Assembly: GCF_031127875.1 (NCBI RefSeq)
Contig: NZ_JARXIA010000005.1
Span: 124,001-188,000 of the forward strand
DNA from: Pelagicoccus sp. SDUM812005
GTDB taxonomy: Bacteria; Verrucomicrobiota; Verrucomicrobiia; Opitutales; Opitutaceae
Direction: 5' to 3'
Length of the DNA stretch: 64,000 nt
The notes under the pieces are model-generated. The model was not told where the DNA came from. It made no database searches and saw nothing but the letters and a program-made list of their open reading frames with translations. The stretch's first letter is position 1; each line of letters starts with the position of its first letter. The position numbers and the translations under genes are program-made. Below are positions 17,404-64,000 of the stretch, one piece after another.

Positions 17404-17565
17404 ACCCAGCGAACTATTCCCAGCCTCGCCCAAACCACAAGGCTGCAAAGCAGCCGGAATTCCGGAAATTGCCATCGACCTGCCCCCTTCCATCGTCAAG
17501 GGTTGGACGTCCCCCACCGTTCAACCCACCCAAAGAAAAACGCCCCTGCCATCCATCACCAAGCG

Positions 17566-37801: not shown

Positions 37802-37824
37802 TCCATGCCGTATTCCATGCTGCC

Positions 37825-38421: not shown

Positions 38422-38423
38422 AA

Positions 38424-40963: not shown

Positions 40964-41005
40964 GCCGGCTCCTCGGGCTGCGCCGCCACCCCCTTCTCCA
41001 TCGCC

Positions 41006-41398: not shown

Positions 41399-42801
41399 GC
41401 GACTACCCCGACGCAGAACAAGTCCTCGCCCAGCTGCCAGCCCCTTGGCCCGAGGAAGCACTCATCGGCATCCGTCGGGCCTTGCGCTCGTCGCCTCGAA
41501 AAGTGGTCGTGCTGGATGACGACCCCACCGGCACCCAAACCGTCGAAGACATCACCGTCGTTACCCAATGGGACCCGCAAACCCTGCGGGAGGCTTTCGA
41601 AGAAACCAACCTCGGCTTCTTCATCCTAACCAACTCCAGAGCTCTCACCGAAACTGGTACCATCGAGCTGCATCGCGAAATCCTAGCCAATCTGGAAGAG
41701 GCCGCCAACGGGCAACCCTACACCATCGTGAGCCGCAGCGACTCCACCCTGCGCGGCCACTTTCTCGCCGAATCGAAAACCATCGCAGCCTTTCGCGGCC
41801 CCTTCGACCTGACCGTCATCGCCCCCTTCTTCCAAGCGGGCCAACGCCTCACCCTCGACGACACCCACTACCTCATCGACCAAGGCAAGCTCATCCCCTG
41901 CCACGAGACCCCCTTCGCCGAAGATAAGGTTTTTGGATACAAGGCCTCGCACCTCCCCACCTGGGTTGAAGAAAAGACCCACGGCGAAACGCCTGCAACC
42001 GAAGTCATAAGCATCCCTCTCGACCTCATTCGCAGCAAGGGCCCCGACGGCGTATTCGAAATTCTGACACAAGCGCCCAAGGGCTCCACCTGCATCGTCA
42101 ACGCCTGCGCCCAGAAAGACATGGAAGTCTTCGCCGCGGCAGCCCTCAGGTTCGAAGACTCCGGACGCAACGTGCTGTACCGCACCGCTGCCGCCTTCGT
42201 CGCCGCTCGTTTCGGCATCCGCCCGCCACCCCCGCTCCTTCCCGAATTCATTTCCAACAGCAAGGAACGCGGCGGCCTGGTCGTCGTCGGCTCCTACGTC
42301 CCCAAGTCGAGCGAGCAACTCGCCAAGCTCCTCGAGCTCGGCGAACTCAAAGCCATCGAGCTCAACGTCAACGAACTGCTCAAGTCCGCCGATCCCGACC
42401 GCTACCTGCAATCGCTCGGCGATTCCCTCGAATCCGCTCTCGCGGCAGGCGACGACGTCGTGCTCTACACCAGTCGCGGGCTCGTGTTCAGCGACGCCAA
42501 GGAACAAAACCTGGACATCGGAGGACGCGTAGCCGTCGCCCTCGTTTCCCTGGTTAAAAGCCTGAAGAAGAGCCCCGGCTTCGTCATCGCAAAAGGCGGC
42601 ATCACCTCCAGCACCATCGCCACCGACGCCCTCGGGATCCGCAAGGCCCAGGTGCTCGGCCAGCTCGTCCCCGGCGTTCCCGTCTGGCGAGCCGCCGACG
42701 ACTCCCGGTTTCCCGAAATCGACCTCGTCATCTTTCCCGGAAACGTCGGCGGACCGGATTCCCTTTGCGAGGCCTACCGCAAGCTGAAACGTGTCCGCTA
42801 A
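41395..42801 (+). CDS. four-carbon acid sugar kinase family (DUF1537) protein
   Basis: A 468-residue DUF1537 kinase. N-terminal substrate domain: VVVLDDDPTGTQTVEDI near residue 34 and VSRSDSTLRGHF near 111. C-terminal nucleotide domain: VLYTSRGLV near 356, FVIAKGGITSSTIATDALGI near 395 and IFPGNVGGPDSL near 444. Characterised members (OtnK, DtnK, LtnK-type, OiaK) phosphorylate tetronates, 3-oxo-tetronates or 3-oxo-isoapionate. It starts within the stop of the VOC gene (ATGA), so coupling is expected. This gene gives the best clue to the operon's substrate class. Confidence 0.9.
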   Translation: MSDYPDAEQVLAQLPAPWPEEALIGIRRALRSSPRKVVVLDDDPTGTQTVEDITVVTQWDPQTLREAFEETNLGFFILTNSRALTETGTIELHREILANLEEAANGQPYTIVSRSDSTLRGHFLAESKTIAAFRGPFDLTVIAPFFQAGQRLTLDDTHYLIDQGKLIPCHETPFAEDKVFGYKASHLPTWVEEKTHGETPATEVISIPLDLIRSKGPDGVFEILTQAPKGSTCIVNACAQKDMEVFAAAALRFEDSGRNVLYRTAAAFVAARFGIRPPPPLLPEFISNSKERGGLVVVGSYVPKSSEQLAKLLELGELKAIELNVNELLKSADPDRYLQSLGDSLESALAAGDDVVLYTSRGLVFSDAKEQNLDIGGRVAVALVSLVKSLKKSPGFVIAKGGITSSTIATDALGIRKAQVLGQLVPGVPVWRAADDSRFPEIDLVIFPGNVGGPDSLCEAYRKLKRVR

Positions 42802-47579: not shown

Positions 47580-47858
47580 AAGGCCCCAAGCGAACCGAAT
47601 TTCCCCGCAGATGCAAGACCCGTAGCGCGGAGCTTCCCCGACCGAGGAAGCCTAGACTAAAGAGCACGCCCGAGTGACTCAACGCTTTCGAAACATACCT
47701 GTTTCCCAGCAAGCCTCAATCAGGCTATTCGATCTCTCCCTAAGGCAAAAACCTAGTGCAATGCAGGGAGGGCAAACGGCTTCTCGACTTGTGTCAGTAC
47801 CAACTCATGCGTTTCCTTACACTGATTTAGCCTTTTTTTACTCATTTTCCCTAACTCG

Positions 47859-50800
47859 ATGCCTCTCTCCTCACTGCCATCGCGCGTTACCCATGCCTTA
47901 TCGCTGACAGCCGTCAGCTCACTCGCGCTGACGCACACCGAAGCCTCACTCACTTTCGATTCCGATTCCAACCCAAGGTTATACGACGAGATAAAATTCG
48001 CGGAAAACTTCGAGGGTGAAATCGAAACAAACAAGGACTTCACCGACGGCAGCTTGACCAATGAGAGTCCCCTCATAGGCGAAACCTCCCTCAAGTTGGA
48101 AGACGCTCAGTACTTCAATTCTCCTTCCCTCACTGGCAATAAAACCTACCTCCTCCAATTCACCTACCAATTTGTCACCTCCAACACCGAAGGAATTCCC
48201 TTCAAAGTAGCTGGAAACTGGGAAGAAGCAGGTTCCCAAAAATCATACGATCTGCCTTATATCGATATAGCCTCCTCGCCGAGCAAAGGTTCGATTCGAT
48301 ACTTCCTCCAGTTCGGCAATGTCGAAAACGCGCACTTCTCCATCACTTCGACTTCTGACGTAAGCCTCACCATCGACGAGATCTACCTTTTCGAACGAAC
48401 CATAACGCATAGCGCAAACGAGTTAAGGTATCCGCGACACCAATTTCCCCGTCTCGCCAAGCAGCTCGCAAGCACCGCCCCCAGCTACGCCAATACCCAT
48501 GGCAAAACATTGGAGCAAAGCATCGAGGAACTTTCCCGGTTCGACTTGCTGGCTGGATTCGACGGAGACCAAACACAAGGAATCGAGTGGATCCAGTCTA
48601 TCAAGGAACAGAACACGCAAATACAACTTCTTCCGGCAATCGACCTATCAAAAGCCGACCTCTCATTAAGCGCCTCGGGCGGCGCTCCTGCGAACGGACT
48701 CCTCTCCTCAAAAATATCCAACGACTGGATACTCGTCGACGCAAGCGGAACACCTATCGTCCATAGACATGCCCCTTCCCATACTTACCTGAATATTGGA
48801 TCGGATGCAGCAAGCGCCTGGGGTGATGTACTCGGCACCCACGTAAAGGATAACATTTTCAAAGGAGACCTCTTCGATGGACTCATTCTAAATTCAGCAA
48901 ACGTCCTACCAAATCACCTAGACTTCACTACTTTCGACAATCAAACAGAAACCGCCCTTCCCGACCTCGATCGAGACGGAACCAGCGACTCCGCTGTAGC
49001 CGCGATGCAAGCTTGGCATAGCGGATTGAATGCGACCCTTCAAAGCGCGCAAAAACATCTGCCATCGAACATACAACTCGTAGACCATCCAGATTCACTC
49101 GCCCAAGCAGATGCTCGTTCCACCGAACGTCATAGCCTCATATTCAACGGATCTCCCTTCAAGATTGCAACGGGAACGACGTGGGACACCTCCTCAGACG
49201 CGAATTTCCAAGCTTTACGACGATCCTGGAACCTAGCGCAGGAAAACAGCCAAGCGCCTCGCAGCCCGACCATCTCCTTCAATGGCTCAGGGCTGGGAAC
49301 ACCCAATGGCCAAGTTACTCCACTTGGCAACCTCGATAGGCTCCCTACACCCAGTGCCCAAGATCTCCGACGCGTCCGCTTCGGACTCGCGTCAGCCCTC
49401 TTGCACGACGCCTACTTTTCCTACGATTGGGTCGACGCCAGCTCGCCAATCGCCTGGTTCGACGAATACGCAGTAGCCAAGGACGGAGTCGCTACACTCT
49501 CTCGATTCGGTCAGGATTACCTCGGGCAACCAATCACCGACACACAATCAATCAACCTTACCGATTCCCATCCAGCTCCCATATCAATCGACTTGACTGA
49601 CGCCACCACACTCGAGCTCGATGCCCAACTTCTGGATGACCCACGTCGATCTCTCGACAATCAGCCGACCATTGCCGTCGAACTCAACTCGGACGCAGCA
49701 CCGAAAGAATTTCTCCGCTACCAACTCGATTCCAATCAAGTCCAAGGCGGCAAAGCCTACCGAATCAGCTTCGACTACCGTGTTGAACAGTCCTCTCCTG
49801 AAACGCTAGCACCACTGCTAAGCCTAGGGTTTTCCGACCATGCCTACCAGCTCGAAATCCCCGTATACCAATCCCACGCCGCCGAAAGCGACCATCAATC
49901 GATCGAAGCTCTTTTCCTCATTCCCGATTCCGCAGAATTTCCAAAGCTCATCGGAAAAATCCAACAAGCATCAACCATACTTGTAGCCAATATCCAAATA
50001 CAGGAATCCGGAGCTCAAATTATTCGCCGTGATTTCGAAAACGGCTTCGTATTGCTCAATCCAGGTCCCTTGGAAGCGAGCCTTTCTCAAACGCAAACTC
50101 TCGGATCTCTGAATCGCCAACAACCGCGGCGTATACAAGGAACACAAGCTCCAGAAACCAACAGCGGCGAGGTCCTAAACTCCGGAATAGATATCCCCGC
50201 CGGTGATGCCATAATCCTTCTCGCCAATAGAATAGCAGCAACTCGCGTTTCCTTGCCTCCTAACGGCTTCGCTGTTGTCCCCTCAGGGCCGTCAGCCGAT
50301 AGCGCCACGTTTATCCACCAACTGGAACTTCAAGCAAATATTCAGCTGCTCGCCCTTGAATACGGGCTGGCCGACGGAGAGCTTACCGAATTCGCCTACT
50401 TCCACCCTAAACAGGCTATAACCTTAAGAGGACTCGCCCCGAATACAGCTTACCAAGCGAGATTGCGCACCATCGACGTTTCCGGATACGAAAGTCCAGC
50501 AAGCTCCACAGTTCGTTTCGTCACCGGCGAGCAAGCTTCTCCGCTTCCCTCTATCTTATCCGTCAACACGCTCACCCCAAAACGCGGTGAAGCAATTCTC
50601 TTGCATCACAGCGGACTCGAAATCGAAGAACCGCAGACCTACTCCTACCCATTCCCCTACTCCCACGGCGAAATCTCCGTTCGGATCAATGGTCAAGCCG
50701 CCCCCATCCTCGCAGTAGACACCGACACACTTAGCATAGTCGTCCCCGAATCCCTAACTCCTGGCGAACTTGCAACGCTGCGTATTTTCAAGTCAACTAC

Positions 50801-53800
50801 AGCAGGACCCTCCGCACGACTCGCGATCCAAGACCCCAACGAACAGAAACCAGATACCCTCACCTCAATCCAAATCCAAGAAGTTGGAGCTCTGTTCAAT
50901 TTCGCCAATAGCGCTTCTATCCAAGTCGACATAGTCGAATCAGGTGTCGTACGTATTCGCCAATTCGCAGCAGGCACCTCCTCCCCGTCCGATTCCGGCA
51001 CCGTTCAAACAGCAACCCTACAGTCCCCTACGGTCACAATCCACGACGAGCCGAACCACATCACGCTCGACTCCGAGAACATTCGGGTCCACGTAACGAA
51101 ATCGCCCTTCTCCATACAAACCTATGACGCGAACGGCAGCCTCCTCACAGATGACACGGAACTCGGATTTCTTTGGCGAACAGATCAATCCCTTGTATCC
51201 ACTCGCCTGAGCGCCCCGGAAGGGCGCCACTACTTCGGACTCGGCCTTCGAGGCGGTCCCTTGGATCGTCGCGGAGAACGTATCATCCTTCAAAATCGAG
51301 ATTTCGCCGGGTACGAGGAATTCGACGGACCGCTCTACTCCAGCACTCCTTTCTATTTGGCCGCAACCGATCGAACCTTCCATGGCGTATTCGTTGATGC
51401 TCCCGCTCATTCCTATATCGACCTAGACGCAAACCGAACAGGCGCAGTCGAATTCGGCAGCAAACAACCCAGTCTCGATTACTACGTACTCGCGGGGCCG
51501 CTTCCCTCCTCGGTGATGAAATCCTACCACACTCTCACCGGATCCGCTCCACTCCCACCCCTATGGTCGCTCGGATTTCACCAATCCCGATACGGCTACT
51601 ACTCCTGGGATATCGTCGAAAACGTAGCCAACACCTTTCGATCGCAGGAGATACCAGCCGACGCCATTTATCTCGATATCGATTGGATGCAAAACTACGA
51701 ACCCTTCCAATGGAACCAAACCTACTTCAATAGCCCCAAGCTCCACCTAGACGCGCTTCGCGACCAAGGATTCAGGATCGTCAATATCGTAGACCCCTTC
51801 GTCCCCCAAGACATGCCCACCTGGCAACACCTCGCGAACCTAAACGGTCTGGTCGAAAACGAATCCGGCTCGCCTTACCAAAGCGAAATTTTCCTGGGCA
51901 AGGTCGGCTGGATGGACTTCTTCAAAGAAGATACCGCCACTTGGTACCGCAACGGAGTCAAAAGCTTGTTAGACGCATCCGTATCCGGAATCTGGAACGA
52001 TCTCAACGAACCGGCAGACAACTTCCTCGTCGGGGCCCGCTTCGGAGACGGCGAAAACCAGCTAGACGAATCCCAGGCCCGCAACCTCTTCGCGCTTACT
52101 GAACTCGCTCAAACCCAACAAGCCATGCTCGAGGCGCGGCCGAACGAACGGCCTTTCATCCTAACCCGAGCTGGTTATCCTGGGTTCCATCGCTACGCAG
52201 CCTCCTGGAGCGGCGACACGTCCAGCTCGTTTGACGCCTTACGCGTTTCCATCCAAACGAGCCTCCACATGTCGCTAAGCGGCTCCCCTCAATTCGGACA
52301 CGACGTCGGCGGATTCCTTGGATCTCCTAATTCCGAACTCTTTCTCCGCTGGCTCCACTTCGCGAGCTATACACCTTTTTTCCGTAATCATGCCCACCGC
52401 ATCACCGAGCTCCGAGAACCTTGGCAATTCGACGACGAAACAACCGCCACCGCCCGATCTATAATTGAACAACGCTACCGGCTGCTACCCTACTGGTATT
52501 CGCTATTCCATCAAGCGCAGCAAAATAGCGCCGCGACCCTCGGGCCTACCTTCGAGCGCTTTCCCTACGATTCCAAAACCTTTAGCCAAAGCACGGAGTT
52601 CATGGTCGGCCCCTACCTTCTCGTGGCCCCAATTTACGAGGCCGGCGCCACCGAACGCTCCCTCTACCTCCCCAGCGGCTACGCCTGGTACGACCGCCGC
52701 ACCAACCAACGGTTCCAGGGCGGCCAAACCATCACCGTCAGCGCCCCCATTGGCCAACTCCCAGTCTTCGCGCGCGCCGACGCGATCATCCCCAGCGGCC
52801 CAGTTCGCCAACACTCCGGGCAATCGCTCGAGAGCGAAAGCCTCACGATCGACATTTACCCAGACGACGGAAGCTCATTCACGCTATACGAAGACGACGG
52901 AATCAGCTTCGACTATAAAGCGGGCGAATACCTAACAACGAAAGTATCAAGCCAAACCGAAGACCTGAGGCGCCACATCCACTTCCAATACGAGGGAGAA
53001 TGGGAACCGCAGGAGCGCTCCATTTGGCTGAACTTGCACGATTCTTCCTCCGATATCGAACTAGCATTGGTCGACGGAAAGCTGTACCATTCTAGCGGCA
53101 GTATCCAGAAGCTCGCTACCGTGCCCATTGGCTGGTACCGATCTGAAGAGACCAACATCACAACCCTCCGCATTCCCCAAGGGACGGATTCCGTCACCTT
53201 GCTCTATTCGAAACAGATACCCGATACCCTCGCCCAACTCGTTTTCGAAGACAAAGACGGAGACTTACAAGGCGACCCGAACGCCCCCTATATCGTATTT
53301 TCGAACGACCCAATCTTCGGCCTCGTCGGAAATGCTACCGACCTCGACGACAACGACTACAGCCTTAGAAGCCCGCATCGCCAAAGAAACGGACGCAGCA
53401 TAAGCGCTCCCATCCCGCTCGAGACCGGAAACACAGAAGCGCTTTTGAAGTTCGCCCGAGATATCGGAGTTGACGCCCTATCCTTCCAGTTGGACTGGCA
53501 AGAAATCGACAACCCGGACTCGCCACACTCCCTTGCCGCCTTGGCCAACGCGCTTGCCAAAATCCCCGACAATTGGTCGCTCGACCTCAGCTTTGGCCCT
53601 ATCCTAGAAGGACAGCGTAACGTGCCGTCGGAATTCGCCGAAACGCCCTTTGACAACCAAGCTCTAGCAATCAGCTACGCTGACCGACTCGAGCAAATTC
53701 AGGCCACCCTAGACGGTCGCCCTCTTCGACACCTCACCATCGGAGAACTAGTCCTACAACCCGAACTGGCGGACTCGCTACCAGCTTTCCATTCATTCAT

Positions 53801-56800
53801 CGACCAAGCGAGCAGCGACGCCCAAGCACTCTTCCTCCCTTCCCCTAGCATAGGAGTTAGCGTCTACCTCGAAAACGCAGCCGCCATAGAAAACGCGAGC
53901 GAGGTAGACCTTCTCTCTCAGAATGTCGACTGGATAGCCATCAATTACCTCCCTTGGCCTAACGAACAGAGCATCACCCTCAGCTCGACCCTCTGGCGTC
54001 AACAAATGGAAACCTTCCTCGACGCTTACCCAAGCACGCTTTTTCACCTCGGACCGATCGCGTATCCATCCTCTTCCGGCACCTACAGCTCAAACCTCAA
54101 GCAATCCTACTTTATCAGCGACCTATTCTCCCTCTGGGATAAATACTCCGACCAAATTCCGCACCTCCGCCTATCCGATTTAATTGATCGCAATCCAGCC
54201 GAGGCAAAAATTTTCGCCGAAAAAAGCGCCAAATACCACGGCTCCGACTTCCTCTTGAGCCAACGCGAATCCCTTGCCGCTTCTACAGGCCTCCTCGGTA
54301 CCTACCTCGACCCCAAACCAGCTTACGCAACCTTCCGCAACGCAACCTTCGAACGCGGATGGGACGTCCTTCCAGAAGTCTCGCGACGCAGTATCCAACT
54401 TGGACTCACCACAGATCCCTACGACTTGAACCCCGGCGACGAGGACCCCACTCAGCCATTCATCGACTCAGTCCTAGACGATATTTTCGAAATGGCAGAA
54501 AGCCACGCCGACCTGCTCGAATTCCATTTCGATAAAGGTGTACCTTGGATCGAGGCGCTCTCGGACGATTTCTCCAGCGAACAGCTACCCTACAGCCAAA
54601 ACGTTCGCAGCCATTGGGAAAGCCTTCGATCTCGCGACACCGGCTCCAAAAACATAATGGTATCCATCAACGCATTAGGCCTCCCACGAAAACATCCGGC
54701 AGCATACTGGGGCTACGGAGAAGGCTTCTATCAGGACGACAACGGCAACCGCGTCGCGAACGGAATTTTCCAAGACTACAACCAACGCATCCCGCCCGGC
54801 CTCTGGAAAAACCGAAAGATCAATCACGAATCCACCAAGCGAGCCTTCCTCAACTACGCCAAGCGAAGCATCGACTACTTCCAACCCGAATACCTCAACC
54901 TAGCGGTAGAAGCCAATGAAGCGATCGAAGGGGGAACCACCTTTTTCAACCAGTACCTAGAGCTTCACTCCTACGTCTACGAAGCTCTTAAATCGGACCC
55001 GCGCTACGCAGACGTTAAGATAGTAACCTCCTTCAGCGCCGAATACTTCATGCGCGACGAACGAGGCATTCCCTACCTCGTCTCCGCAATCAAGGACCCA
55101 AACCTAGTAAACACGCACTACGGCATGCTCCATGCTTTACTGCCCTATACCGACATCGTCGGGCTTTCCCTGCATCCAATAAAGATGCGCTTTCCAAACG
55201 AAAGCCTCCCCATGGAATCCTTCCGAAGACTATTCGCCGAATTGCGTCAAGTTACGCACCAGCCACTCGCCATCACCGAGACTGGCTATCCCGCAGACTC
55301 CTTCAAGATCGGAACCCTCGAATACGAATCCAGCCAAGAGAAACAGGCGAAGTACATGAAGATGCTCTTCGCTCTCGCAGAAGAAGCAGGGGGCTTCGAA
55401 TTCATTCTCAACTACGGGATAAAAGACTTCACCCCACGCCTCGACAAGCTGAGGCTTCGAGCGCAAGAAACTCCGCCCTTCACCTCTCCAGCCCTAACCG
55501 AATTCTTCAAAATATTCGAAAGCATTGGTTTGTATGAAGAAAACGGTGACAGCCGACCTGCTACCAGTATCTGGACCCACTATCGTGATCTGCCTCGAAT
55601 CGAAGCGCAGATCCCCGAACGGATACTCGAACTCTCTAGCCCCAACCAAAACTTGCAAGCTCGCTTCGGTATCGACAGCGCCAATAACCTGTACCTCTCC
55701 CTAAACCACGGAAACGTTCAAGTGCTTGGAAAATCCGAACTCGGCATTGAGATTGGCGAGCACAAACTCGGAGCCGGGCTGCTCCGCCTCACCCTGCAGG
55801 ACTTAGGTACAGTCGACGCTTCCTACAGAACAGTGGCCAACGGCCCGCTCCTGCGTAGCCACTACCGAAGCTATACTATCAAAGCCTACAGCATCGACTT
55901 CGACGCTCCAACCCTTGCACTGGAGATCCGCCTCTTCGACGACGGACTCGCATACCGCTACCAAATCCCCAACCTCGAAGGAAGCCAGCGAATAAAGGGC
56001 GAATCGTCTTCATGGAATTTCCCCCAAGACACGACTCTCTGGTTTCAAAACAGCACCAGCAACTACGAAGGCCAATTTCGCTCACTTAAGATTGGTTTGC
56101 TAAACGAAGATATTGGCGGACAGGCCCTCGCCCAGCTCCCAGAATCAAGCCACTACCTATTCGTATCCGAAGCCTCACTACGCGAATACAGCGGTATGAC
56201 CCTAAGAGCAAGCTTCACGAATACCGCCCTCAGGGCCAGTTTCCTGGACGATACGCAGTGGGCAATCCCAGCGTCCAGACTCAGTCCTTGGCGCTACACC
56301 GTAGTCGCCCCTGATCTAGACACGTTAGTAAATTCGGCGCTCTCCACCCACCTCAACGAACCGCCAGCGGCAGAGTTCTTTCCTAACGGGGCCAGCGAGA
56401 AATGGATACGCCCCGGCAAAGCGCTCTGGTCTTGGTGGAGCGATCAAGATTCAGGCGGTGACTTCCACCGTCAGCTTGAATTCGTGGACTGGGCAGCCGC
56501 GAGAGGAATGGACTACGTCGTTATCGACATCCACTGGGAAAGCGGGTTCGCGACCGAGAATAAGGACGCGTTCCAACGACTCGCCGAACTCGTCGACTAT
56601 GCCCGGTCCGACTACCGGCAGATCGGCATTTGGATTTGGAAGGACCTTTCCGAAGTCCGAGATCCGATCACGCGCGAATCCTTCTTAGACCAAGCTCAAG
56701 CTGCTGGCGTCGTTGGCATCAAGTTCGACCTTATCTATGGCGACGATAGCGAATCGCTCGCTAACGTAATCCTTCACGAAGAGCTCCTAAAAGCCTGCGC

Positions 56801-57947
56801 CGCACGGAAGCTTATGGTCAACTTCCACGGTACCCATAAAGCTCACGGCCTACACCGCACCTACCCTAACGAAATTACTCGAGAAGGCCTATCCGGCTTG
56901 GAAAACGTCGGCGTACTATGGGAGGACTCCCCAGATTTACTCATCCCGCCTTCCCACAACGTCATACTCCCTTTCGCCCGATTCCCAGCCGGCCCCGGCG
57001 ACTACACTCCAGTCACCCTCGACTCCCGAAAAACCGGAGACACCACACTGGCCCACCAAGTAGCGATGGCTGGCCTAGCTACGTCTCCACTTCTCCACTA
57101 CGCGGATTCTCCAGAAGTTCTCTTTTCGAACGACACGGCCGACGACCTACTGTCCCACATGCCGACTGTCTGGGACCAAACGAAAGTTCTCGCCCACAGC
57201 CAACTAGGAGAGTCCGCCGTGATCGCTCGACGTAAAGCCAGCGACTGGTGGCTATTCGCCGCCAACGGCTCCAGCTCAGCCCCGCTCTCAATCCAACGAC
57301 TAGACCTGAGCTTCCTCGAGGCATTCCGCTACGACTTAACTCTTCTCACTGATACCGATTCGCAAACCCTAGCACGCACCGAGCATAGCGATATCGGTAG
57401 CGAAAGCGACATTTCGCTCCACCTTCTGCCTGGTGGCGGAGCCACCCTACGCTTCATCGCCCAACAAAGCTACCAAAGCTGGAGCGCGATTCGACACGGA
57501 GCAGCCCCAGAACTAGCCGACCCAGCCGCCGACCCTGACCTCGACGGCTGGCCCAACCGCTTCGAGTACGCCTTCGACCTAGACCCGTTCAGCGCCGACG
57601 AAGACCCGTCGCCCATCATCCACTCTGAGCCAGACGGAAAGGGAAACCTTGTAATCATCCTCCCAGGAGCCGCATCTCACGATGAATGGGAGAAGATAGA
57701 CTGGATCCAGAATGGTCTTCCTAACAAAGGCCTGACCTACCAGTTGCAGATTTCCCAAAACCTGCAGGAATGGGACCCGCTACTCCCTCTCCCTGCCCCC
57801 GAAGGCCCCTTCTACCGAGACACCAATGGAGTCCTACGAAACGCATGGGCCTACCCTATTCTCGACGACTCCAATTCTTCCATCTTTATCCGAATAGAAT
57901 TAGGCGAACGCTCCCCAGAAGCAGCCAACCACGAAACTAAAGACTAG
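47859..57947 (+). CDS. giant secreted multi-module glycoside hydrolase (GHL15-like, GH31, two clan-A-like barrels, GH97)
   Basis: A 3362-residue protein. Modules in order: weak signal and a CBM-like domain (to about 185); putative glycoside hydrolase of the GHL15 type (about 190-560); FnIII (about 810-895); IPT/TIG (about 900-1000); GH31 (about 1010-1720) with nucleophile Asp in WNDLNEP near 1381 and acid/base Asp in WSGDTSS near 1452; a degenerate clan-A-like barrel (about 1840-2150); an intact one (about 2160-2560) with Glu in VEANEA near 2353 and ITETGYP near 2473; GH97 (about 2570-3190) with WSWWSD near 2854, GIKFD near 2956 and YPNEITREG near 3003. A Ca-binding-like DPDLDGWPNRFEY segment and a C-terminal beta domain close it. 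One uninterrupted frame; it appears to lead the exopolysaccharide cluster. Confidence 0.85.
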   Translation: MPLSSLPSRVTHALSLTAVSSLALTHTEASLTFDSDSNPRLYDEIKFAENFEGEIETNKDFTDGSLTNESPLIGETSLKLEDAQYFNSPSLTGNKTYLLQFTYQFVTSNTEGIPFKVAGNWEEAGSQKSYDLPYIDIASSPSKGSIRYFLQFGNVENAHFSITSTSDVSLTIDEIYLFERTITHSANELRYPRHQFPRLAKQLASTAPSYANTHGKTLEQSIEELSRFDLLAGFDGDQTQGIEWIQSIKEQNTQIQLLPAIDLSKADLSLSASGGAPANGLLSSKISNDWILVDASGTPIVHRHAPSHTYLNIGSDAASAWGDVLGTHVKDNIFKGDLFDGLILNSANVLPNHLDFTTFDNQTETALPDLDRDGTSDSAVAAMQAWHSGLNATLQSAQKHLPSNIQLVDHPDSLAQADARSTERHSLIFNGSPFKIATGTTWDTSSDANFQALRRSWNLAQENSQAPRSPTISFNGSGLGTPNGQVTPLGNLDRLPTPSAQDLRRVRFGLASALLHDAYFSYDWVDASSPIAWFDEYAVAKDGVATLSRFGQDYLGQPITDTQSINLTDSHPAPISIDLTDATTLELDAQLLDDPRRSLDNQPTIAVELNSDAAPKEFLRYQLDSNQVQGGKAYRISFDYRVEQSSPETLAPLLSLGFSDHAYQLEIPVYQSHAAESDHQSIEALFLIPDSAEFPKLIGKIQQASTILVANIQIQESGAQIIRRDFENGFVLLNPGPLEASLSQTQTLGSLNRQQPRRIQGTQAPETNSGEVLNSGIDIPAGDAIILLANRIAATRVSLPPNGFAVVPSGPSADSATFIHQLELQANIQLLALEYGLADGELTEFAYFHPKQAITLRGLAPNTAYQARLRTIDVSGYESPASSTVRFVTGEQASPLPSILSVNTLTPKRGEAILLHHSGLEIEEPQTYSYPFPYSHGEISVRINGQAAPILAVDTDTLSIVVPESLTPGELATLRIFKSTTAGPSARLAIQDPNEQKPDTLTSIQIQEVGALFNFANSASIQVDIVESGVVRIRQFAAGTSSPSDSGTVQTATLQSPTVTIHDEPNHITLDSENIRVHVTKSPFSIQTYDANGSLLTDDTELGFLWRTDQSLVSTRLSAPEGRHYFGLGLRGGPLDRRGERIILQNRDFAGYEEFDGPLYSSTPFYLAATDRTFHGVFVDAPAHSYIDLDANRTGAVEFGSKQPSLDYYVLAGPLPSSVMKSYHTLTGSAPLPPLWSLGFHQSRYGYYSWDIVENVANTFRSQEIPADAIYLDIDWMQNYEPFQWNQTYFNSPKLHLDALRDQGFRIVNIVDPFVPQDMPTWQHLANLNGLVENESGSPYQSEIFLGKVGWMDFFKEDTATWYRNGVKSLLDASVSGIWNDLNEPADNFLVGARFGDGENQLDESQARNLFALTELAQTQQAMLEARPNERPFILTRAGYPGFHRYAASWSGDTSSSFDALRVSIQTSLHMSLSGSPQFGHDVGGFLGSPNSELFLRWLHFASYTPFFRNHAHRITELREPWQFDDETTATARSIIEQRYRLLPYWYSLFHQAQQNSAATLGPTFERFPYDSKTFSQSTEFMVGPYLLVAPIYEAGATERSLYLPSGYAWYDRRTNQRFQGGQTITVSAPIGQLPVFARADAIIPSGPVRQHSGQSLESESLTIDIYPDDGSSFTLYEDDGISFDYKAGEYLTTKVSSQTEDLRRHIHFQYEGEWEPQERSIWLNLHDSSSDIELALVDGKLYHSSGSIQKLATVPIGWYRSEETNITTLRIPQGTDSVTLLYSKQIPDTLAQLVFEDKDGDLQGDPNAPYIVFSNDPIFGLVGNATDLDDNDYSLRSPHRQRNGRSISAPIPLETGNTEALLKFARDIGVDALSFQLDWQEIDNPDSPHSLAALANALAKIPDNWSLDLSFGPILEGQRNVPSEFAETPFDNQALAISYADRLEQIQATLDGRPLRHLTIGELVLQPELADSLPAFHSFIDQASSDAQALFLPSPSIGVSVYLENAAAIENASEVDLLSQNVDWIAINYLPWPNEQSITLSSTLWRQQMETFLDAYPSTLFHLGPIAYPSSSGTYSSNLKQSYFISDLFSLWDKYSDQIPHLRLSDLIDRNPAEAKIFAEKSAKYHGSDFLLSQRESLAASTGLLGTYLDPKPAYATFRNATFERGWDVLPEVSRRSIQLGLTTDPYDLNPGDEDPTQPFIDSVLDDIFEMAESHADLLEFHFDKGVPWIEALSDDFSSEQLPYSQNVRSHWESLRSRDTGSKNIMVSINALGLPRKHPAAYWGYGEGFYQDDNGNRVANGIFQDYNQRIPPGLWKNRKINHESTKRAFLNYAKRSIDYFQPEYLNLAVEANEAIEGGTTFFNQYLELHSYVYEALKSDPRYADVKIVTSFSAEYFMRDERGIPYLVSAIKDPNLVNTHYGMLHALLPYTDIVGLSLHPIKMRFPNESLPMESFRRLFAELRQVTHQPLAITETGYPADSFKIGTLEYESSQEKQAKYMKMLFALAEEAGGFEFILNYGIKDFTPRLDKLRLRAQETPPFTSPALTEFFKIFESIGLYEENGDSRPATSIWTHYRDLPRIEAQIPERILELSSPNQNLQARFGIDSANNLYLSLNHGNVQVLGKSELGIEIGEHKLGAGLLRLTLQDLGTVDASYRTVANGPLLRSHYRSYTIKAYSIDFDAPTLALEIRLFDDGLAYRYQIPNLEGSQRIKGESSSWNFPQDTTLWFQNSTSNYEGQFRSLKIGLLNEDIGGQALAQLPESSHYLFVSEASLREYSGMTLRASFTNTALRASFLDDTQWAIPASRLSPWRYTVVAPDLDTLVNSALSTHLNEPPAAEFFPNGASEKWIRPGKALWSWWSDQDSGGDFHRQLEFVDWAAARGMDYVVIDIHWESGFATENKDAFQRLAELVDYARSDYRQIGIWIWKDLSEVRDPITRESFLDQAQAAGVVGIKFDLIYGDDSESLANVILHEELLKACAARKLMVNFHGTHKAHGLHRTYPNEITREGLSGLENVGVLWEDSPDLLIPPSHNVILPFARFPAGPGDYTPVTLDSRKTGDTTLAHQVAMAGLATSPLLHYADSPEVLFSNDTADDLLSHMPTVWDQTKVLAHSQLGESAVIARRKASDWWLFAANGSSSAPLSIQRLDLSFLEAFRYDLTLLTDTDSQTLARTEHSDIGSESDISLHLLPGGGATLRFIAQQSYQSWSAIRHGAAPELADPAADPDLDGWPNRFEYAFDLDPFSADEDPSPIIHSEPDGKGNLVIILPGAASHDEWEKIDWIQNGLPNKGLTYQLQISQNLQEWDPLLPLPAPEGPFYRDTNGVLRNAWAYPILDDSNSSIFIRIELGERSPEAANHETKD

Positions 57948-57996
57948 CCTCATTCCAATTCGGCTCCATACAAGACCGACTCACCTTCCTTCTCTT

Positions 57997-60900
57997 ATGT
58001 CAGTTCACCAGACGTTCAATCGGTTCATTTGCCGCACCGCTACGTGCTTCGCGATAGCGGGCTGTGGGCTCTCGGCAGCCGATTCGTCAGAAGCAGCAGC
58101 GGAGAGTTGGAAACCAATAGGCCCCTACCTTACCACCGCATTCGCCTACGCCCTCGACCCCTTCGACCAGGATCGCGTCATGATCGGGACATTCTTCAAC
58201 GGCGTCTACCTGAGCGAAAACGGCGGCCTGAACTGGCAAAGCATCGGAGCGGAATTCAGCTCAGCTTTCGTACAAGACATTGAAGCCGACCCGAGCACCG
58301 AGAACACTTTCTATGCCGCTACGTTCGAACGGGGAATCTACAAGACGCAAGACGGAGGCCAAAGCTGGACTCCAGCCAACGAGGGGCTCCCAAACCTCAA
58401 TATACGAGGCATCAGCATCTCTCCTCTCAATCCACAACTACTCATCTCCTGCTCCTTCGACGGTCCCTACTTCTCCGCAGACGGAGGCGACTACTGGCTC
58501 CCGTCCAACCGAGACAACCTTCCGTGTATAAGCGCTCTGCATTCCCGTACCTTTTCACCAGTCGCCTACCTTGGAACCGACGGACTCGGCGTATGGCGTA
58601 CCATCGACGGGGGCGCGAATTGGGAGCCGTGGAATGAAGGAATCGAAAACCACGTTGTCTTCGACCTCGTCTCCGACCCTAGCGTCGGAGAAGTCCTCTA
58701 CGCTGCAACCAACAAAGGGGTTTTCATCCGAGGAGCGAGCGACGAATCCTGGAGTTCCCTCAAACACAATCTTCCCGACGCCAATGTGGACCACCTCGTC
58801 TTCCACCCCGACGGACGGCTCCTCGCGTCCAGTGGCGTTGGCGTCTTCTACCTAGAAGGCGCGGACGACGACATCTGGGACCTCTGGAATTCGCAGCCAA
58901 CCCGCTTAGTGATTCCCTTTCCGGAAACGGAAGGGAAATTTATCCTAGCCGGATTCGAGGACACTCTCGACCTCACGCTCGATGACGGCAAGACCCTCAC
59001 AAATGTATCCCAAGGCGTTCAAAACAACTTTCCCGACGCCCTCGCTTCACTCGTCCACGAAGATAAATCCTACGTTTTGGCAGGACTCGATAGCGGAGTA
59101 TGGCGGGCCGAAGACGACGGCGCCGATTCCACGCTGGACTGGAGCCAAGCCCCAAGCATGAAGGACCACCTCATCTTCGAGCTTACCCCGCACCCAACCC
59201 GCTCCGGACATGTGTACGCCGGAACTGAGCGAGCCGGCGTTTGGTTCAGCGAAGACGCAGGCCTTACCTGGACCCAACGCTCAGAAGGCATCTACCCTAC
59301 CAGCATCCACGATATCGACCAATCTAGCCTGGGCAGCCAAACCTTCTATTGCGCAACGGAAGTTGGCATTTTCATAAGCAAAGACAATGGGCGTAATTGG
59401 AAAATGGGGACAAACGTTGCCGTACCATCCCTGATAACCGCCGTCGAAGTCGACCCGGTCAAGGAAGGCTTCGCATACTACGGAAGTGCAGCAGGAAACA
59501 TATTCTTCACCACAAACGACCGCGACTTTCAGCCCGGACCAACCCTAGCCAGCGGGATCAAAGCGATTCGAGCTGTCCCCTTCGAAGGCCTATATATCGT
59601 AACCTTCGACGGAAATGTGTATTCCTCTCGCAACGACAGTTTAAACCTCGCACCACGGCAGGTCGGACTTAACCACCGCGTCTTAGACATTCAAGTCGAT
59701 CCAGAGCTCAGTGAAGTCGCTTATGCCGCCACCGCTGGCGGTGGGATTTACAAAACCCTATCCGAGGGCTCCGAGTGGGCAGCGAGCTCAACAGGCATGG
59801 AAGAAGAGTATATATTCTCGTTGTCCATCGATCCCTTCGACAGACAATCTCTCGCCGCAGCTGCCCAAGGCGCCACTTATCTCAGCGAAAACGCCGGCGA
59901 ATCTTGGCAACGCTATACCGGCACCCTTCCTGAAGGAAAAAACGTTACTCACATCCTCCATAGCCGCACGACGGAAAACCTCCTCTTTTGCTCAGTTGAA
60001 AACCTCGGAGCATTCCGCTCCCTGGATGGAGGAAAAACCTGGGAAAGCCTAGGACTTCCGCCCGAGGAAACAGTCGGAAATTTGCCGATAGCTCTGTCCG
60101 CTGTGGACAACGAAGAACTCTTCGTGGGAAGTCGTGGCCTTGGCCTACAACGGCTCGATAGCGAAACAAACGACTGGAAACGGAGCTCGAGTGGCATAAC
60201 CGACCTCGTTCGCGGAATCGCTATCGGAAAGGAAACGCCGGATCTGCTTTTCGCAGCGACTCTGAATAGCGGCATGTTCAAATCCGAGGACGCCGGACTG
60301 AGCTGGGCCAGGACAGGTCTACAGGATCAAAGACTGCTTCACGTCGAAATGAACCCGGAGAATGACAAGGAGGTTTACGCCGGGACCACCATCGGTCTGG
60401 CAGTCACGCGAAACCAAGGCCAAACTTGGAACATGCTTGGCCAAAAGGTGGCCTACTCAACCGCGTTCTCCATCCAATCCACTCCCACACCCAGCTACTA
60501 CGTCGGCGGCGCTGGCGGCGTACTTTATGCTTCCGAAGATGAAGGCATTTCCTGGAGAAATGCAGCTGAAAACCTGCCTTCCAACGAAATCACATTCCTG
60601 AAATCGGCTGGAGCCAACCTCTTCGCCGCAGTCGATGCAGCAGGCTTGTACCGAAAACCAGATTCAAGCTCACCGTGGAGCCTCATTTCCAGCGACCGTT
60701 TCGACGCCGACAAGATTGTAGCGATCGAAGCGGACCCCTACTTTGAACAGCTCTTCGTTGCCGCTCAAAGAGAGGGACTCTATCTAGCTGACTTTAGCGG
60801 CGCAAGCTGGCAAAATCTGGAACTCCCGCACGCAAGCTACGAGCTCAACCCAATCACAAGCATCCTCCAAGATCCTCTCAATCCGGACCGCTTCTACCTT

Positions 60901-62127
60901 ACAAGAGCGAACAACGACGGTGGGCTTCCCGCCATCCACATTTCCGAAAATCGCGGACAAAGCTGGACTAGCCGAGGAACTGAATCCGGACTCGAATCCT
61001 CTGTCGCCTATCACATCGCCGCATCGAATCTAGTCGTTGATACACTTCTATGCGGAACAAGTGAAGGAGTGTTCCGCTCGACCGACGGGGGCTCGACATG
61101 GGCATCGACCGCTATCCATGGAGCCGATGCCAACTATGTAGCGTTCGATCCTTTCCAGAAGAATACAGCCTATGCTTCCACCGTGGAATTCGGCTTCTTC
61201 GTCAGCGAAGACCGAGGCCTAAGCTGGACTCCTACGGACCTGCCATCCGACCTAGTCGTATCGTCCCTACAGCAACGCGGCCACCCAGGCGAACTCGCTG
61301 CCAGCACCTATTCGAACGGACTGTATTTCAGCGACGACTACGGGAAATCGTGGAGCGGAGGCATCACGCCCTTACGCTCCCGTAACACCGTCGGATTCGT
61401 CTCCATCGATCCCGCCCAACCCAGCACTATATTCTGCGCGACCACCCAAGCTGGAATTCTTCGGTCCTACGATTCAGGACGATCGTTCGAAGCCATTAAC
61501 GACGGGCTAGGTAGCCACCTCACTCTGCTAACCGTCTTGATCGACCCTAGCAACCCTCACACCCTCTATGCAGGCACCATAACGGACGGCGTCTACCTCA
61601 GCGAAAACCAAGGCGACACTTGGACGCCCATACGGGAAGGCATGCCCCACGAACTCACAATTTCATTAGCCGCCCATCCAACGCAAAAAGGGATCGTCTA
61701 CGCCGGCGTAGAAGGTGGAGGCGTCTTCCGCATTGATCGCGAAGTCTCCCCTTTGGCAGCCCTCGTCGACTACGATGCGGACGGTATCCCCACAATATGG
61801 GAATCGTTTTTTCAACTCGACCCTCTCGCGGCTGATTCCGCGGCGGTTCGACGATTAGGCCCACCTTATATTTCGACAAAAGACGGGATGAGAGAAATCG
61901 CATGGTATCAACCAGCAATCGAAAGTGAAAGTTCTCCCAGACTTGAGATCGATACCAGCGACGATTTGGTTGATTGGCATGCCCTACCCTCCGAAGCGAT
62001 TCAAAGTGCAATTCTCGAACTCGAAAGCAGAAACAAACCAGTCAAGATCCTCCACCAACGCATCAACCTTGAAGTCGACAACAATGCGAAGTCCCGCTTT
62101 TTCCGCTTCATCCTCCATCAGCAATAG
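57997..62127 (+). CDS. large exported Asp-box (BNR/VPS10-like) beta-propeller protein
   Basis: A 1376-residue protein. The N terminus has a short hydrophobic part ending in IAGC (Cys 23), possibly a lipobox. I count at least 17 Asp-box motifs of the form S/T-x-D/N-x-G-x-x-W (SENGGLNW, TQDGGQSW, SEDAGLTW, SENQGDTW and others), spread over residues 50-1230. That is enough for two or three propellers, as in GH74 or VPS10 proteins. No GH74 catalytic pair can be placed. It ends with DYDADGIPTIWESFFQLDP and a C-terminal beta domain like that of the giant hydrolase, 49 bases upstream. Probably surface glycan binding. Confidence 0.78.
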   Translation: MSVHQTFNRFICRTATCFAIAGCGLSAADSSEAAAESWKPIGPYLTTAFAYALDPFDQDRVMIGTFFNGVYLSENGGLNWQSIGAEFSSAFVQDIEADPSTENTFYAATFERGIYKTQDGGQSWTPANEGLPNLNIRGISISPLNPQLLISCSFDGPYFSADGGDYWLPSNRDNLPCISALHSRTFSPVAYLGTDGLGVWRTIDGGANWEPWNEGIENHVVFDLVSDPSVGEVLYAATNKGVFIRGASDESWSSLKHNLPDANVDHLVFHPDGRLLASSGVGVFYLEGADDDIWDLWNSQPTRLVIPFPETEGKFILAGFEDTLDLTLDDGKTLTNVSQGVQNNFPDALASLVHEDKSYVLAGLDSGVWRAEDDGADSTLDWSQAPSMKDHLIFELTPHPTRSGHVYAGTERAGVWFSEDAGLTWTQRSEGIYPTSIHDIDQSSLGSQTFYCATEVGIFISKDNGRNWKMGTNVAVPSLITAVEVDPVKEGFAYYGSAAGNIFFTTNDRDFQPGPTLASGIKAIRAVPFEGLYIVTFDGNVYSSRNDSLNLAPRQVGLNHRVLDIQVDPELSEVAYAATAGGGIYKTLSEGSEWAASSTGMEEEYIFSLSIDPFDRQSLAAAAQGATYLSENAGESWQRYTGTLPEGKNVTHILHSRTTENLLFCSVENLGAFRSLDGGKTWESLGLPPEETVGNLPIALSAVDNEELFVGSRGLGLQRLDSETNDWKRSSSGITDLVRGIAIGKETPDLLFAATLNSGMFKSEDAGLSWARTGLQDQRLLHVEMNPENDKEVYAGTTIGLAVTRNQGQTWNMLGQKVAYSTAFSIQSTPTPSYYVGGAGGVLYASEDEGISWRNAAENLPSNEITFLKSAGANLFAAVDAAGLYRKPDSSSPWSLISSDRFDADKIVAIEADPYFEQLFVAAQREGLYLADFSGASWQNLELPHASYELNPITSILQDPLNPDRFYLTRANNDGGLPAIHISENRGQSWTSRGTESGLESSVAYHIAASNLVVDTLLCGTSEGVFRSTDGGSTWASTAIHGADANYVAFDPFQKNTAYASTVEFGFFVSEDRGLSWTPTDLPSDLVVSSLQQRGHPGELAASTYSNGLYFSDDYGKSWSGGITPLRSRNTVGFVSIDPAQPSTIFCATTQAGILRSYDSGRSFEAINDGLGSHLTLLTVLIDPSNPHTLYAGTITDGVYLSENQGDTWTPIREGMPHELTISLAAHPTQKGIVYAGVEGGGVFRIDREVSPLAALVDYDADGIPTIWESFFQLDPLAADSAAVRRLGPPYISTKDGMREIAWYQPAIESESSPRLEIDTSDDLVDWHALPSEAIQSAILELESRNKPVKILHQRINLEVDNNAKSRFFRFILHQQ

Positions 62128-62143
62128 CTCCTTCTATTGAACT

Positions 62144-62893
62144 ATGAGTAACACACACAAAGATCCTATCAGCAAGTCGCTCTATGCAGGTCTTCGCACC
62201 GAAGCGCAGGAACGCCTAGAACTGCGAGACTATACAGATCACAATCTCAACGAACGCCTGCGATCGACCGGCGTCGAAGCCAAGGAGATCATTAACCTTA
62301 GCGTGCGTCCCGATAATTGGATACCCGGCGTCGAGCTGATGCCGCGCCGCGTTCACAGGCAACGCCAGCGCGGACATTTCGGCGAGATAGTCAGGCTTGA
62401 AGAGAACCTAATGCAAAAGATGGGCTTCTCTCCAAAGCAATGGTCCTCCGCGCTCATGTATTCAGGAACGATGAAGGGTTTCCATATCCATCCCCCCTAC
62501 GTCCCGCCCGACCATAAACCTGAAGATTGGTTTCGCAGGCAATTCATCGACGAACCAGAAAACTACAGCCTCCGAGACTACCGCAAAGAACAATGGGAAA
62601 TGTCGTTTTTCCTACTAGGCACCGTAGAACTATTTCTCGTCGACGAACGAGCAGGAATGCCCCGACGACAGATGCGCGTCGTTATCGACGGCGACGATTC
62701 TCCTGGCGACAACAATGCAGGTGTCATCATTCCCCCTGGAGTTGCCCATGCATTTCGCGCTGAAGGCTCTGCAGACCTCCTTCTCGTCTATGGAACCTCC
62801 ACTACTTTTCGGGCAGAGTTCGAGGGACGCCTGGTCAGCAGCGTAGAGCGCGCGGAAATAGACGGCGACTGGATCGAGTACCTCGGAAAATAA
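62144..62893 (+). CDS. cupin protein related to dTDP-4-dehydrorhamnose 3,5-epimerase (RmlC fold)
   Basis: A 249-residue protein. The RmlC-like core includes GTMKGFHIHPPYVPP near residue 107 (cf. LRGLHYQ in RmlC), EQWEMSFFLLGTVELFLVDER near 148, VIIPPGVAHAFRAEGSADLLLVYGTS near 198 and a C-terminal FEGRLVSS. RmlC epimerises a nucleotide sugar on the way to dTDP-rhamnose. The sequence is divergent and longer than usual, so the exact reaction is uncertain. It begins 16 bases after the propeller gene and is followed by polysaccharide export genes, so nucleotide-sugar modification for exopolysaccharide is the likely role. Confidence 0.75.
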   Translation: MSNTHKDPISKSLYAGLRTEAQERLELRDYTDHNLNERLRSTGVEAKEIINLSVRPDNWIPGVELMPRRVHRQRQRGHFGEIVRLEENLMQKMGFSPKQWSSALMYSGTMKGFHIHPPYVPPDHKPEDWFRRQFIDEPENYSLRDYRKEQWEMSFFLLGTVELFLVDERAGMPRRQMRVVIDGDDSPGDNNAGVIIPPGVAHAFRAEGSADLLLVYGTSTTFRAEFEGRLVSSVERAEIDGDWIEYLGK

Positions 62894-62959
62894 TCAAGCC
62901 TCCTCGAAGATTCTGTACACACCGTCCCACTGCCGCAAACCTCCTTTCCTTCTGAAGCC

Positions 62960-63721
62960 ATGATTTCCATTTCCTCTCTTGAACGCGTCCAGATACGGAA
63001 CCGCTTGTACCGCTACGCGGCGCTAGCCCTAGCAAGCCTTTGCCTCAGCGGATGCACCACTCCCCATCCAACTAGAAACAGCTTTCGCGGAGAACTTCAG
63101 CCCGCCTCCATGTACTCCCAAAGCGCAAGCCCGTATCGCTATGCGATCCAGCCGGGTGACGTACTACGAATCGATTTCGCGACCGAACTGAGTGGAAACC
63201 GCGACATCACCGTTCAACCGGACGGCTGGATATCCCCACCGCACATACCTGCCTTCCAGGCCTCGAGGCTTACGCTCGAAGAGCTGGAGGACAAACTTGA
63301 GAACGCATACGCCAAAGTGCTACGCTTTTCCGACCTCACGCTAGACCTCGTAAGCAGCCACCCACTTTACATTTACGTCGGCGGCGAGGTAACGCTCAAC
63401 GGTCGCCTTCCTTACCAAGAAGGCACCACGGTACGGCAGGCGATCCTGCAAGCGGGAGGCACTCGCAAGGGAGCTGCCCTCAAAAAAGCCTTCGTGATAA
63501 GGGATACTGGGAAAGACATACCGGCATACCTGGTTTTTGACTTCAACAACCTAGACCCCGCTCCTTATCACGACCTTTACCTACAGCCTAAAGACATCGT
63601 CATCGTACCCAAAACAGGCATCTCGAAGTTCTCCCACTTCATAGACTCGTACATCAATGAAATCCTTCCCTTTTCTCGCAGTGTGAATGCCAACTACTAC
63701 AGCGAGGACCTCAAACGATGA
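62960..63721 (+). CDS. Wza-type polysaccharide export outer-membrane lipoprotein
   Basis: A 253-residue protein. The signal ends in a lipobox LSGC (Cys 32). The Poly_export domain starts YAIQPGDVLRIDFATELSGNRDITVQPDGWISPP near residue 56, and an SLBB domain follows (VYVGGEVTLNGRLPYQEGTTVRQAILQAGGT near 137-165). Wza-like proteins form the outer-membrane channel for capsule or exopolysaccharide. It is shorter than E. coli Wza (379 residues), with one SLBB domain instead of two. Its TGA overlaps the ATG of the chain-length gene. Confidence 0.9.
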   Translation: MISISSLERVQIRNRLYRYAALALASLCLSGCTTPHPTRNSFRGELQPASMYSQSASPYRYAIQPGDVLRIDFATELSGNRDITVQPDGWISPPHIPAFQASRLTLEELEDKLENAYAKVLRFSDLTLDLVSSHPLYIYVGGEVTLNGRLPYQEGTTVRQAILQAGGTRKGAALKKAFVIRDTGKDIPAYLVFDFNNLDPAPYHDLYLQPKDIVIVPKTGISKFSHFIDSYINEILPFSRSVNANYYSEDLKR

Positions 63722-64000
63722 ACACCAGCCACATTACCACGATCGAAAAGGACGCCGGACCATCCATTGAGGACCTGAGCGAAGACATTCTAGGTGTCGC
63801 TAAGCGGAAGAAGAAATTGATAGCATCCGTCGTCATCCTCACCACGCTCCTCGCATACGTCGGACTCCAATTCAAAAGCGACCTGTACGATACCACAGCC
63901 TCGCTCATCGTTTCCCTAGGGCCTGAAAACGCCGATGTACCTATTGCCGTCGACAAAGGAACGGTGCACCGCCAAGGCGTAATGAAGGAGGAAATCAATA
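63718..64000 (+). CDS. Wzz/GumC-type chain-length determinant (N-terminal part, cut by window end)
   Basis: The first 94 residues are visible. After a charged cytoplasmic leader (EDLSEDILGVAKRKKKL) comes a transmembrane segment (about 36-52). A periplasmic start, YDTTASLIVSLGPENADVP, is typical of Wzz/GumC proteins, which control polysaccharide chain length and work with the Wza channel. The start overlaps the export gene by four bases (ATGA), as is common for this pair. The kinase part, if any, lies beyond the window. Confidence 0.85.
   Translation, partial: MNTSHITTIEKDAGPSIEDLSEDILGVAKRKKKLIASVVILTTLLAYVGLQFKSDLYDTTASLIVSLGPENADVPIAVDKGTVHRQGVMKEEIN

Follow-up and report, generated by a model that had tools for sequence, protein, structure and literature searches.

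A fused multi-module glycoside hydrolase protein at the head of a putative exopolysaccharide island in Pelagicoccus

Results

The window analysed here is a stretch of 64,000 nucleotides (C74:124001-188000) from the 6.65 Mb genome of Pelagicoccus sp. SDUM812005, which is assembled in 118 contigs. It contains the gene for a protein of 3362 aa, termed P1, which joins GHL15-like, GH31, clan GH-A-like and GH97 modules in one chain. The modules have the following window coordinates:

47859..57947, plus strand: P1, fused multi-module protein (open reading frame, Pfam, codon-position G+C, check of the joints)
48432..49598, plus strand: GHL15-like module, aa 192-580, below the Pfam cut-off in P1; its ortholog is a separate gene in the proteobacterial locus L032
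50256..50828, plus strand: parts resembling Fn3 and IPT/Soli_cterm, aa 800-990, with which the L032 gene aligns colinearly (alignment A7)
50919..53042, plus strand: GH31 module, aa 1021-1728, with nucleophile D1381 and acid/base D1453 kept (Pfam, alignment, tree)
53385..54440, plus strand: B1, first clan GH-A-like barrel, aa 1843-2194, without catalytic pair (model, alignments, profile comparison)
54441..55598, plus strand: B2, second predicted clan GH-A barrel, aa 2195-2580, with E2351 after strand 4 and E2474 on strand 7 (model, alignments, fold and profile searches)
55632..57455, plus strand: GH97 module, aa 2592-3199, predicted retaining type, with D2957 and E3009 kept (Pfam, structure-based columns, tree)
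57474..57944, plus strand: C-terminal part without Pfam match

The coding sequence of P1 is a single ATG-to-stop frame with exact boundaries, in agreement with the one 10-kb frame proposed by the first-pass annotation of this DNA. Its codon-position G+C is coherent across twelve 900-nt steps, in every one of which both other forward frames contain stops. No ATG occurs at the fusion joints (aa 960-1060 and 1740-1843); GTG or TTG codons are absent from the first joint and lie near the second at aa 1755 and 1781. The genome being a 118-contig assembly, an error of assembly or annotation that joined separate genes into P1 has to be considered. We regard such an error as highly improbable: P1 aligns to its relatives right up to the joints, and the two intergenic regions could not have been removed by a single base error. 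Because the codon-position G+C is coherent and the joints lack both ATG and stop, we reject the artefact reading. The module order read in the first pass (GHL15-like, GH31, two clan-A barrels, GH97) is recovered by Pfam, AlphaFold2 and the fold and profile searches. The same annotation had named a failure of HMMs to put GH31 and GH97 in one frame as its refutation; the search was run, and Pfam places both families there. The complete catalytic pair is kept in only three of the five P1 barrels, namely GH31, B2 and GH97.

The families GHL1-GHL15 were recognised in 2011 as likely TIM-barrel glycoside hydrolases which, save GHL1, were then yet uncharacterised, according to PMC5765458. The N-terminal module of P1 stays below the PF14885 (GHL15) gathering cut-off of 27, scoring 14.9 bits in the whole protein and 18.8 bits as the module alone. 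We name it GHL15-like because its L032 ortholog passes with 32.4 bits. At position 345 P1 has Asn where this ortholog has Asp; that the Asp is a catalytic residue is our guess, and the catalytic pair of the module in P1 is doubtful. A model of the module built from two sequences reached a pLDDT of 34 and was discarded as a basis for its fold. In the following region Soli_cterm scores 22 bits in P1 (cut-off 29), and an fn3 domain lies above the cut-off in the L032 ortholog. A single-sequence search of the PDB with P1 aa 1-874, and with the middle barrels, gave no match up to E 10.

The GH31 module is recognised by four Pfam domains, all above cut-off: the barrel with 324 bits and the accessory domains with 98, 77 and 56 bits. 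The motifs WNDLNEP and WSGDTSS, noted in the first pass, are both present; they contain D1381 and D1453, which we take to be the nucleophile and the acid/base, and both residues are also found in the ortholog at L049. Against the MalA alpha-glucosidase model the module scores 383 bits, with the cut-off at 800. In a tree of 14 rows it is the sister of the GH31 from the Aquabacterium cluster described below (support 100/98).

The GH97_N, barrel and C domains of the GH97 module score 134, 163 and 49 bits in Pfam, all above cut-off. D2957 aligns with the nucleophile column of 3a24/5e1q, occupied by Asp in 3a24 and by Gly in the 5e1q chain, and E3009 with the acid/base column, the Glu of LNFEG. The GIKFD motif that the first pass read in this module is also present. 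The same pair is kept in the proteobacterial relatives L031, L032 and L034, and L033 is cut before these positions. The module is closest to retaining alpha-galactosidases, as the first pass had suggested. It shares with the enzyme of 3a24 and 5e1q the fold family and both catalytic columns, at 161 bits only, and that enzyme is free-standing, unlike the P1 module. The NCBIfam equivalog for retaining alpha-galactosidases (NF053844) gives 202 bits vs a cut-off of 800. In a tree of 19 rows P1, P2 (a second island protein, see below) and the proteobacterial GH97 sequences form one clade (95/94), apart from the sampled GH97 of the host phylum. The exact places in the GH31 and GH97 trees are less sure, given the long branch of P2 and the unusual letter make-up flagged for several key rows.

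Neither middle barrel of P1 has a match in Pfam. B1 is preceded by a linker which we take to be thrombospondin-3-like. AlphaFold2, run on an alignment of 15 sequences, models B1-B2 as two (beta/alpha)8 barrels (pLDDT 81.6, pTM 0.83), and the fold and profile searches are likewise in line with the tandem of clan-A-like barrels seen in the first pass. In a Foldseek search of the PDB the first five matches are Klotho chains, followed by GH53, GH1, GH2, GH39 and PslG (5bx9, rank 40, E 1.1e-7). Klotho, a tandem GH1 pseudo-enzyme of animals, resembles B1-B2 in carrying tandem clan GH-A barrels in one chain. Superposed over both barrels, the two fit loosely (TM about 0.35, rmsd 12-15), no common sequence family is seen and B2 keeps its catalytic pair; the likeness is one of architecture only.

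For B2 the VIA Z score is about 23-25 against GH1, GH5 and GH53 (model residues 378-786), in a comparison that barely covers B1. A PDB search with the B2 profile retrieves GH53 (7osk, E 4.7e-8). E2351 (model residue 557) follows the strand at 551-555 and E2474 (680) lies on the strand at 676-681, the places of the clan GH-A catalytic pair. Both Glu are invariant in 15 of 15 rows of alignment A6 and in the 14 non-Bx rows of an 18-row set. The fold and profile searches thus place the predicted B2 barrel in clan GH-A. Among proteins of known structure, GH53 beta-1,4-galactanases are nearest in sequence to the B2 profile, and they likewise have two Glu at strands 4 and 7. They differ in that B2 itself has no PF07745 (GH53) match at a maximal E of 10; only P3, a third island protein, reached this cut-off among the relatives scanned (24.2 vs 24). 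None of the 16 B2-type members matches an NCBIfam model.

B1 appears to be a clan GH-A-like barrel, judging by the model, the Foldseek matches that span both barrels and its profile match to B2 (97%). Searched against the PDB, the B1 profile gives only short, weak matches to clan GH-A enzymes (best E 0.00086). After strand 4 P1 has E1963, and its strand 7 lacks an acidic residue; among nine B1 rows no catalytic pair is conserved, and in two of them, L051 and L054, acidic residues occur close to both positions. In a further barrel type, Bx, all four copies carry Gln instead of the nucleophile Glu, and three keep the acid/base Glu (L031:7869-8882, L032:7029-8042, L034:13106-14095 and L013:7666-8628). 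On the strength of models and alignments we call B1-B2 an unclassified, putative clan GH-A tandem unmatched in Pfam.

P1 is the first gene of an island. To its left lie a gene that we recognise from its sequence as asnS and a gene for phosphatidylserine decarboxylase. The island and the genes that follow P1 in the window are:

47629..64000, no strand: left part of the 37.8-kb island C74:171,629-209,441, which runs on to the right of the window (congener comparison, G+C)
57997..62127, plus strand: VPS10/BNR beta-propeller protein (Pfam), starting 50 nt after P1; 32% identical to the Aquabacterium gene that comes next after B1-B2-GH97-Bx
62144..62893, plus strand: cupin-like protein, both Pfam matches below cut-off
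62960..63721, plus strand: Wza-like Poly_export/SLBB lipoprotein-like protein (Pfam); Wzz- and Wzy-like genes and P2 come next, outside the window

We compared the locus with four of its seven congeners (G001, G002, G003 and G007). In all four, 18 to 226 bases separate the asnS stretch from the sequence homologous to C74 from 209,442-209,461 on. They lack the 37,813 bases in between (171,629-209,441), which contain the genes described here from P1 on. The G+C of the island pieces is 0.544, 0.523 and 0.514 vs 0.604, 0.585 and 0.603 in the flanks. Beyond the Wza-like gene the island encodes a Wzz/GNVR protein, a Wzy_C protein, P2, two fused epimerases, a sugar transferase and a GT4. Further along come a short protein without Pfam match, the lipoprotein-like, GH53-like P3, a flippase-like protein (no Pfam match, 29% identity with the flippase gene of Aquabacterium), a methyltransferase, a GT2 and another GT4. 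This gene content identifies the island as a predicted Wzx/Wzy-type exopolysaccharide (EPS) synthesis locus, and the gene of P1 lies inside it.

Besides P1 the island contains two more barrel proteins, P2 and P3. P2 (L013:5614-11370, right of the window, 1918 aa) consists of a GH97 and three barrels, and its order GH97-Bx-B1-B2 presents the same modules as P1, permuted. Both catalytic residues of the P2 GH97 are exchanged, D to E and E to D. Among the 16 island ORFs scanned there is no Pfam-recognised sugar importer. At a cut-off of 1e-30 none of the 99 other genomes searched in the family matches the BNR gene, no tRNA was found in L013 or L014, and the promoter and terminator scans gave no excess.

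A pattern-based scan of a named genome collection with the B2 profile recovered 14 loci. Four of them are Proteobacteria with B1-B2-GH97 (L031, L032, L033 and, in Aquabacterium, L034); the other ten have B2-type barrels without GH97. The stop-to-stop frames measure 1881 aa in L031, 1884 aa in L032 and 1845 aa in L034, and the L033 frame is cut inside GH97. L031 and L032 are 94% identical and therefore close relatives, so that the four genomes include two close relatives and one truncated contig. L031 is 37% identical to P1 along aa 1798-3208. In L032 the B1-B2-GH97-Bx gene is followed by a separate GHL15-Fn3 protein (1246-aa stop-to-stop frame, 31% identical along P1 aa 192-990) and then, on the other strand, by a GH31 gene truncated where the contig ends. 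At the Aquabacterium locus the true multi-hydrolase gene is L034 8585-14119. A 3058-aa frame at L034:8677-17850 was rejected, as it ends in the BNR protein and is before that a wrong-frame reading of high-G+C DNA.

The Aquabacterium contig L034/L049 carries B1-B2-GH97-Bx, BNR, epimerase, Wza, B1-B2, GH31, methyltransferase, GT2, Wzy and Wzz, and a second contig, L050, carries GT4, P3-like and flippase genes. The identities of L049/L050 to the island proteins are 29% (Wzz), 38% (Wzy), 50% (GT2), 51% (methyltransferase), 42% (GT4), 38% (GH31), 34% (P3), 29% (flippase) and 32% (Wza). Full synteny with the synthesis genes is known from this one genome, a MAG in which the locus lies on two contigs. 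In the stretches of Aquabacterium that were read, GHL15 was not found; its gene was seen beside the other parts in one MAG contig, L032. The parts of P1 are separate neighbouring genes in Proteobacteria, and P1 is therefore a fusion of genes from a shared set: the comparison resolves it into [GHL15-Fn3-IPT], [GH31] and [B1-B2-GH97(-Bx)]. By gene content these parts belong to a rare, predicted EPS locus common to two phyla.

The middle barrels were found in one of 200 genomes of the host family, the host's own. The system occurs in one of 300 genomes of the order of Aquabacterium, which is Aquabacterium itself. In the class of the proteobacterial MAG G551 some match was found in 10 of 369 genomes, and both barrels are covered only in G551. 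Five other long GH31 or GH97 frames of the host phylum (L078-L082) have one family each in Pfam; none has both. The first pass knew of no described architecture joining GH31, GH97 and clan-A modules. Among the genomes searched, the full GHL15+GH31+B1-B2+GH97 fusion was found only here; its B1-B2-GH97 part is not unique, being present in the four proteobacterial genomes.

Two proteobacterial MAGs have second B1-B2 genes:

L051:7995-10607 (G551): located among housekeeping genes, not EPS genes
L054:9116-11530 (G552): no island gene besides B1-B2 recognised nearby, the neighbours being compared with island proteins only

The B1-B2 search row of G552 has one in-frame TAG. In two Chloroflexi MAGs two P3-like barrel matches stand side by side (L037:8769-10978 and L038:8829-10930).

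Discussion

We favour, with some reserve, the view that P1 is an enzyme that is secreted, is produced together with the EPS that its own island would build and export, and acts on this polymer. Because it sits in an EPS-building island, P1 probably trims the EPS of its host and not a food glycan. The one branched glycan of the first-pass annotation, left unspecified there, can thus be replaced by the putative product of an EPS-synthesis island that reaches beyond the window. Two further proposals of that annotation have to be narrowed. Its suggestion that all modules could act counts too many, as the P1 B1 lacks the strand-7 acid and a conserved pair and the GHL15 match is weak, with Asn for Asp. 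An alpha-linked glycan as the substrate does not suit B2, which groups with retaining beta-type clan GH-A enzymes.

Secretion, action on the own EPS and the bonds cut are inferred. The polymer made by Wzy would leave the cell via the Wza-like exporter. There GH97 may remove alpha-galactosyl-type and GH31 alpha-glucosyl-type side residues, and B2 may cut a beta-linkage of the backbone, assignments suggested by family resemblance only. B1 and the N- and C-terminal parts could hold the chain, and the fusion would keep the activities together at the cell surface. The EPS would thereby be trimmed, controlled in length or released, effects that PslG, PelA and PgaB each bring about on their own. The N-terminal signal peptide of P1 is weakly hydrophobic, which counts against this reading, and a strict EPS role is weakened because the second B1-B2 gene of G551 sits among housekeeping genes. 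The lack of recognised island genes other than B1-B2 near the one of G552 also counts against it, as does the absence of any excess in the promoter and terminator scans.

The lone B1-B2 gene of G551, outside any EPS cluster, would also suit a digestive role, with P1 a multi-activity fusion for an external branched glycan that came to lie beside EPS genes by chance. GH31 and GH97 are common in the phylum: a GH31-tail/GH97 query, with at most two candidates per genome among the matches listed and no test for the middle barrels, matches at least 238 of 387 genomes. A GHL15-GH31 query at 1e-20 matches at least 194 of 374, the GHL15 part being matched in no other genome among the matches listed. 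In at least one relative GH31 and GH97 adjoin as separate frames (G223:C36:9449-13282). We nevertheless consider a nutritional role unlikely, given that the fusion, its paralogs P2 and P3 and the EPS genes share one island, that the link with orthologous synthesis genes is kept in Aquabacterium, and that none of the 16 scanned island ORFs is a recognised sugar importer. P1 could instead be mainly a large surface matrix protein with several sugar-binding, partly non-catalytic barrels, somewhat like Klotho, the pseudo-glycosidase tandem that gave the best fold matches of B1-B2. The absence of a conserved pair from the nine B1 rows, the Gln of all Bx copies and the exchanged residues of the P2 GH97 point in this direction. 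As GH31, B2 and GH97 of P1 each keep both catalytic residues, we think a mainly structural role rather improbable.

The EPS-trimming role that we favour has partial parallels. PslG, a GH39 enzyme, is, like P1, a clan GH-A hydrolase encoded within an EPS synthesis cluster, the Psl operon of Pseudomonas aeruginosa; unlike P1 it has a single catalytic domain of another family, without GH31, GH97 or a partner barrel. PMC9894940 gives PslG a role in dispersal, describes glycoside hydrolase or lyase genes as common in EPS operons, and calls the physiological role of these hydrolases unclear. The same article covers PelA (GH166 and deacetylase) and PgaB (deacetylase and hydrolase), which resemble P1 as multi-domain EPS-editing enzymes within an EPS operon and differ from it in having two domains, of other families, where P1 has five barrels. 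The putative EPS cluster wps-1 of Actinoplanes missouriensis likewise contains the gene of a glycoside hydrolase, WpsE (PMC13390465), which differs from P1 in its single GH26 domain; the terms GH31 and GH97 are absent from the main text of that article. Literature on GH97 and EPS clusters, on multi-module GH31+GH97 proteins and on Verrucomicrobia or Wzy-type clusters with glycoside hydrolases yielded no such protein in titles and abstract openings. In the passages of PMC5352709 that were checked the terms GH31, GH97 and 'multimodular' are unrelated, and the same holds for PMC8072126.

On a bolder and distinctly tentative reading, the locus might represent a rare cross-phylum EPS system with its own hydrolase set: a GHL15-like protein, GH31, retaining GH97 and the unclassified clan GH-A tandem with a front barrel lacking the catalytic pair. 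Here a single surface enzyme of 3362 aa would remodel the finished polymer by multi-specific editing after polymerisation, and B1-B2 would be a new glycoside hydrolase family. Such multi-specificity editing was found described for no Wzy-type EPS in the literature searched. Single hydrolases in EPS operons are already known, and several specificities in one locus are what is added. As such a locus also occurs naturally in split as well as fused form and has barrels that keep or lack a catalytic pair, it would make the order, place and purpose of EPS editing directly testable. The P1 locus also offers candidate enzymes for EPS and a putative clan GH-A tandem outside Pfam.

Two side observations concern other regions of the window. 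A protein of 1876 aa at 16072-21702 joins a GDSL lipase-like domain, DUF7133, HEAT repeats and cytochrome c. At 36770-42801, tripartite tricarboxylate transporter genes (TctC, TctA) lie beside genes for a Gfo/Idh/MocA oxidoreductase and an SBD_N/NBD_C sugar-acid kinase-like protein.
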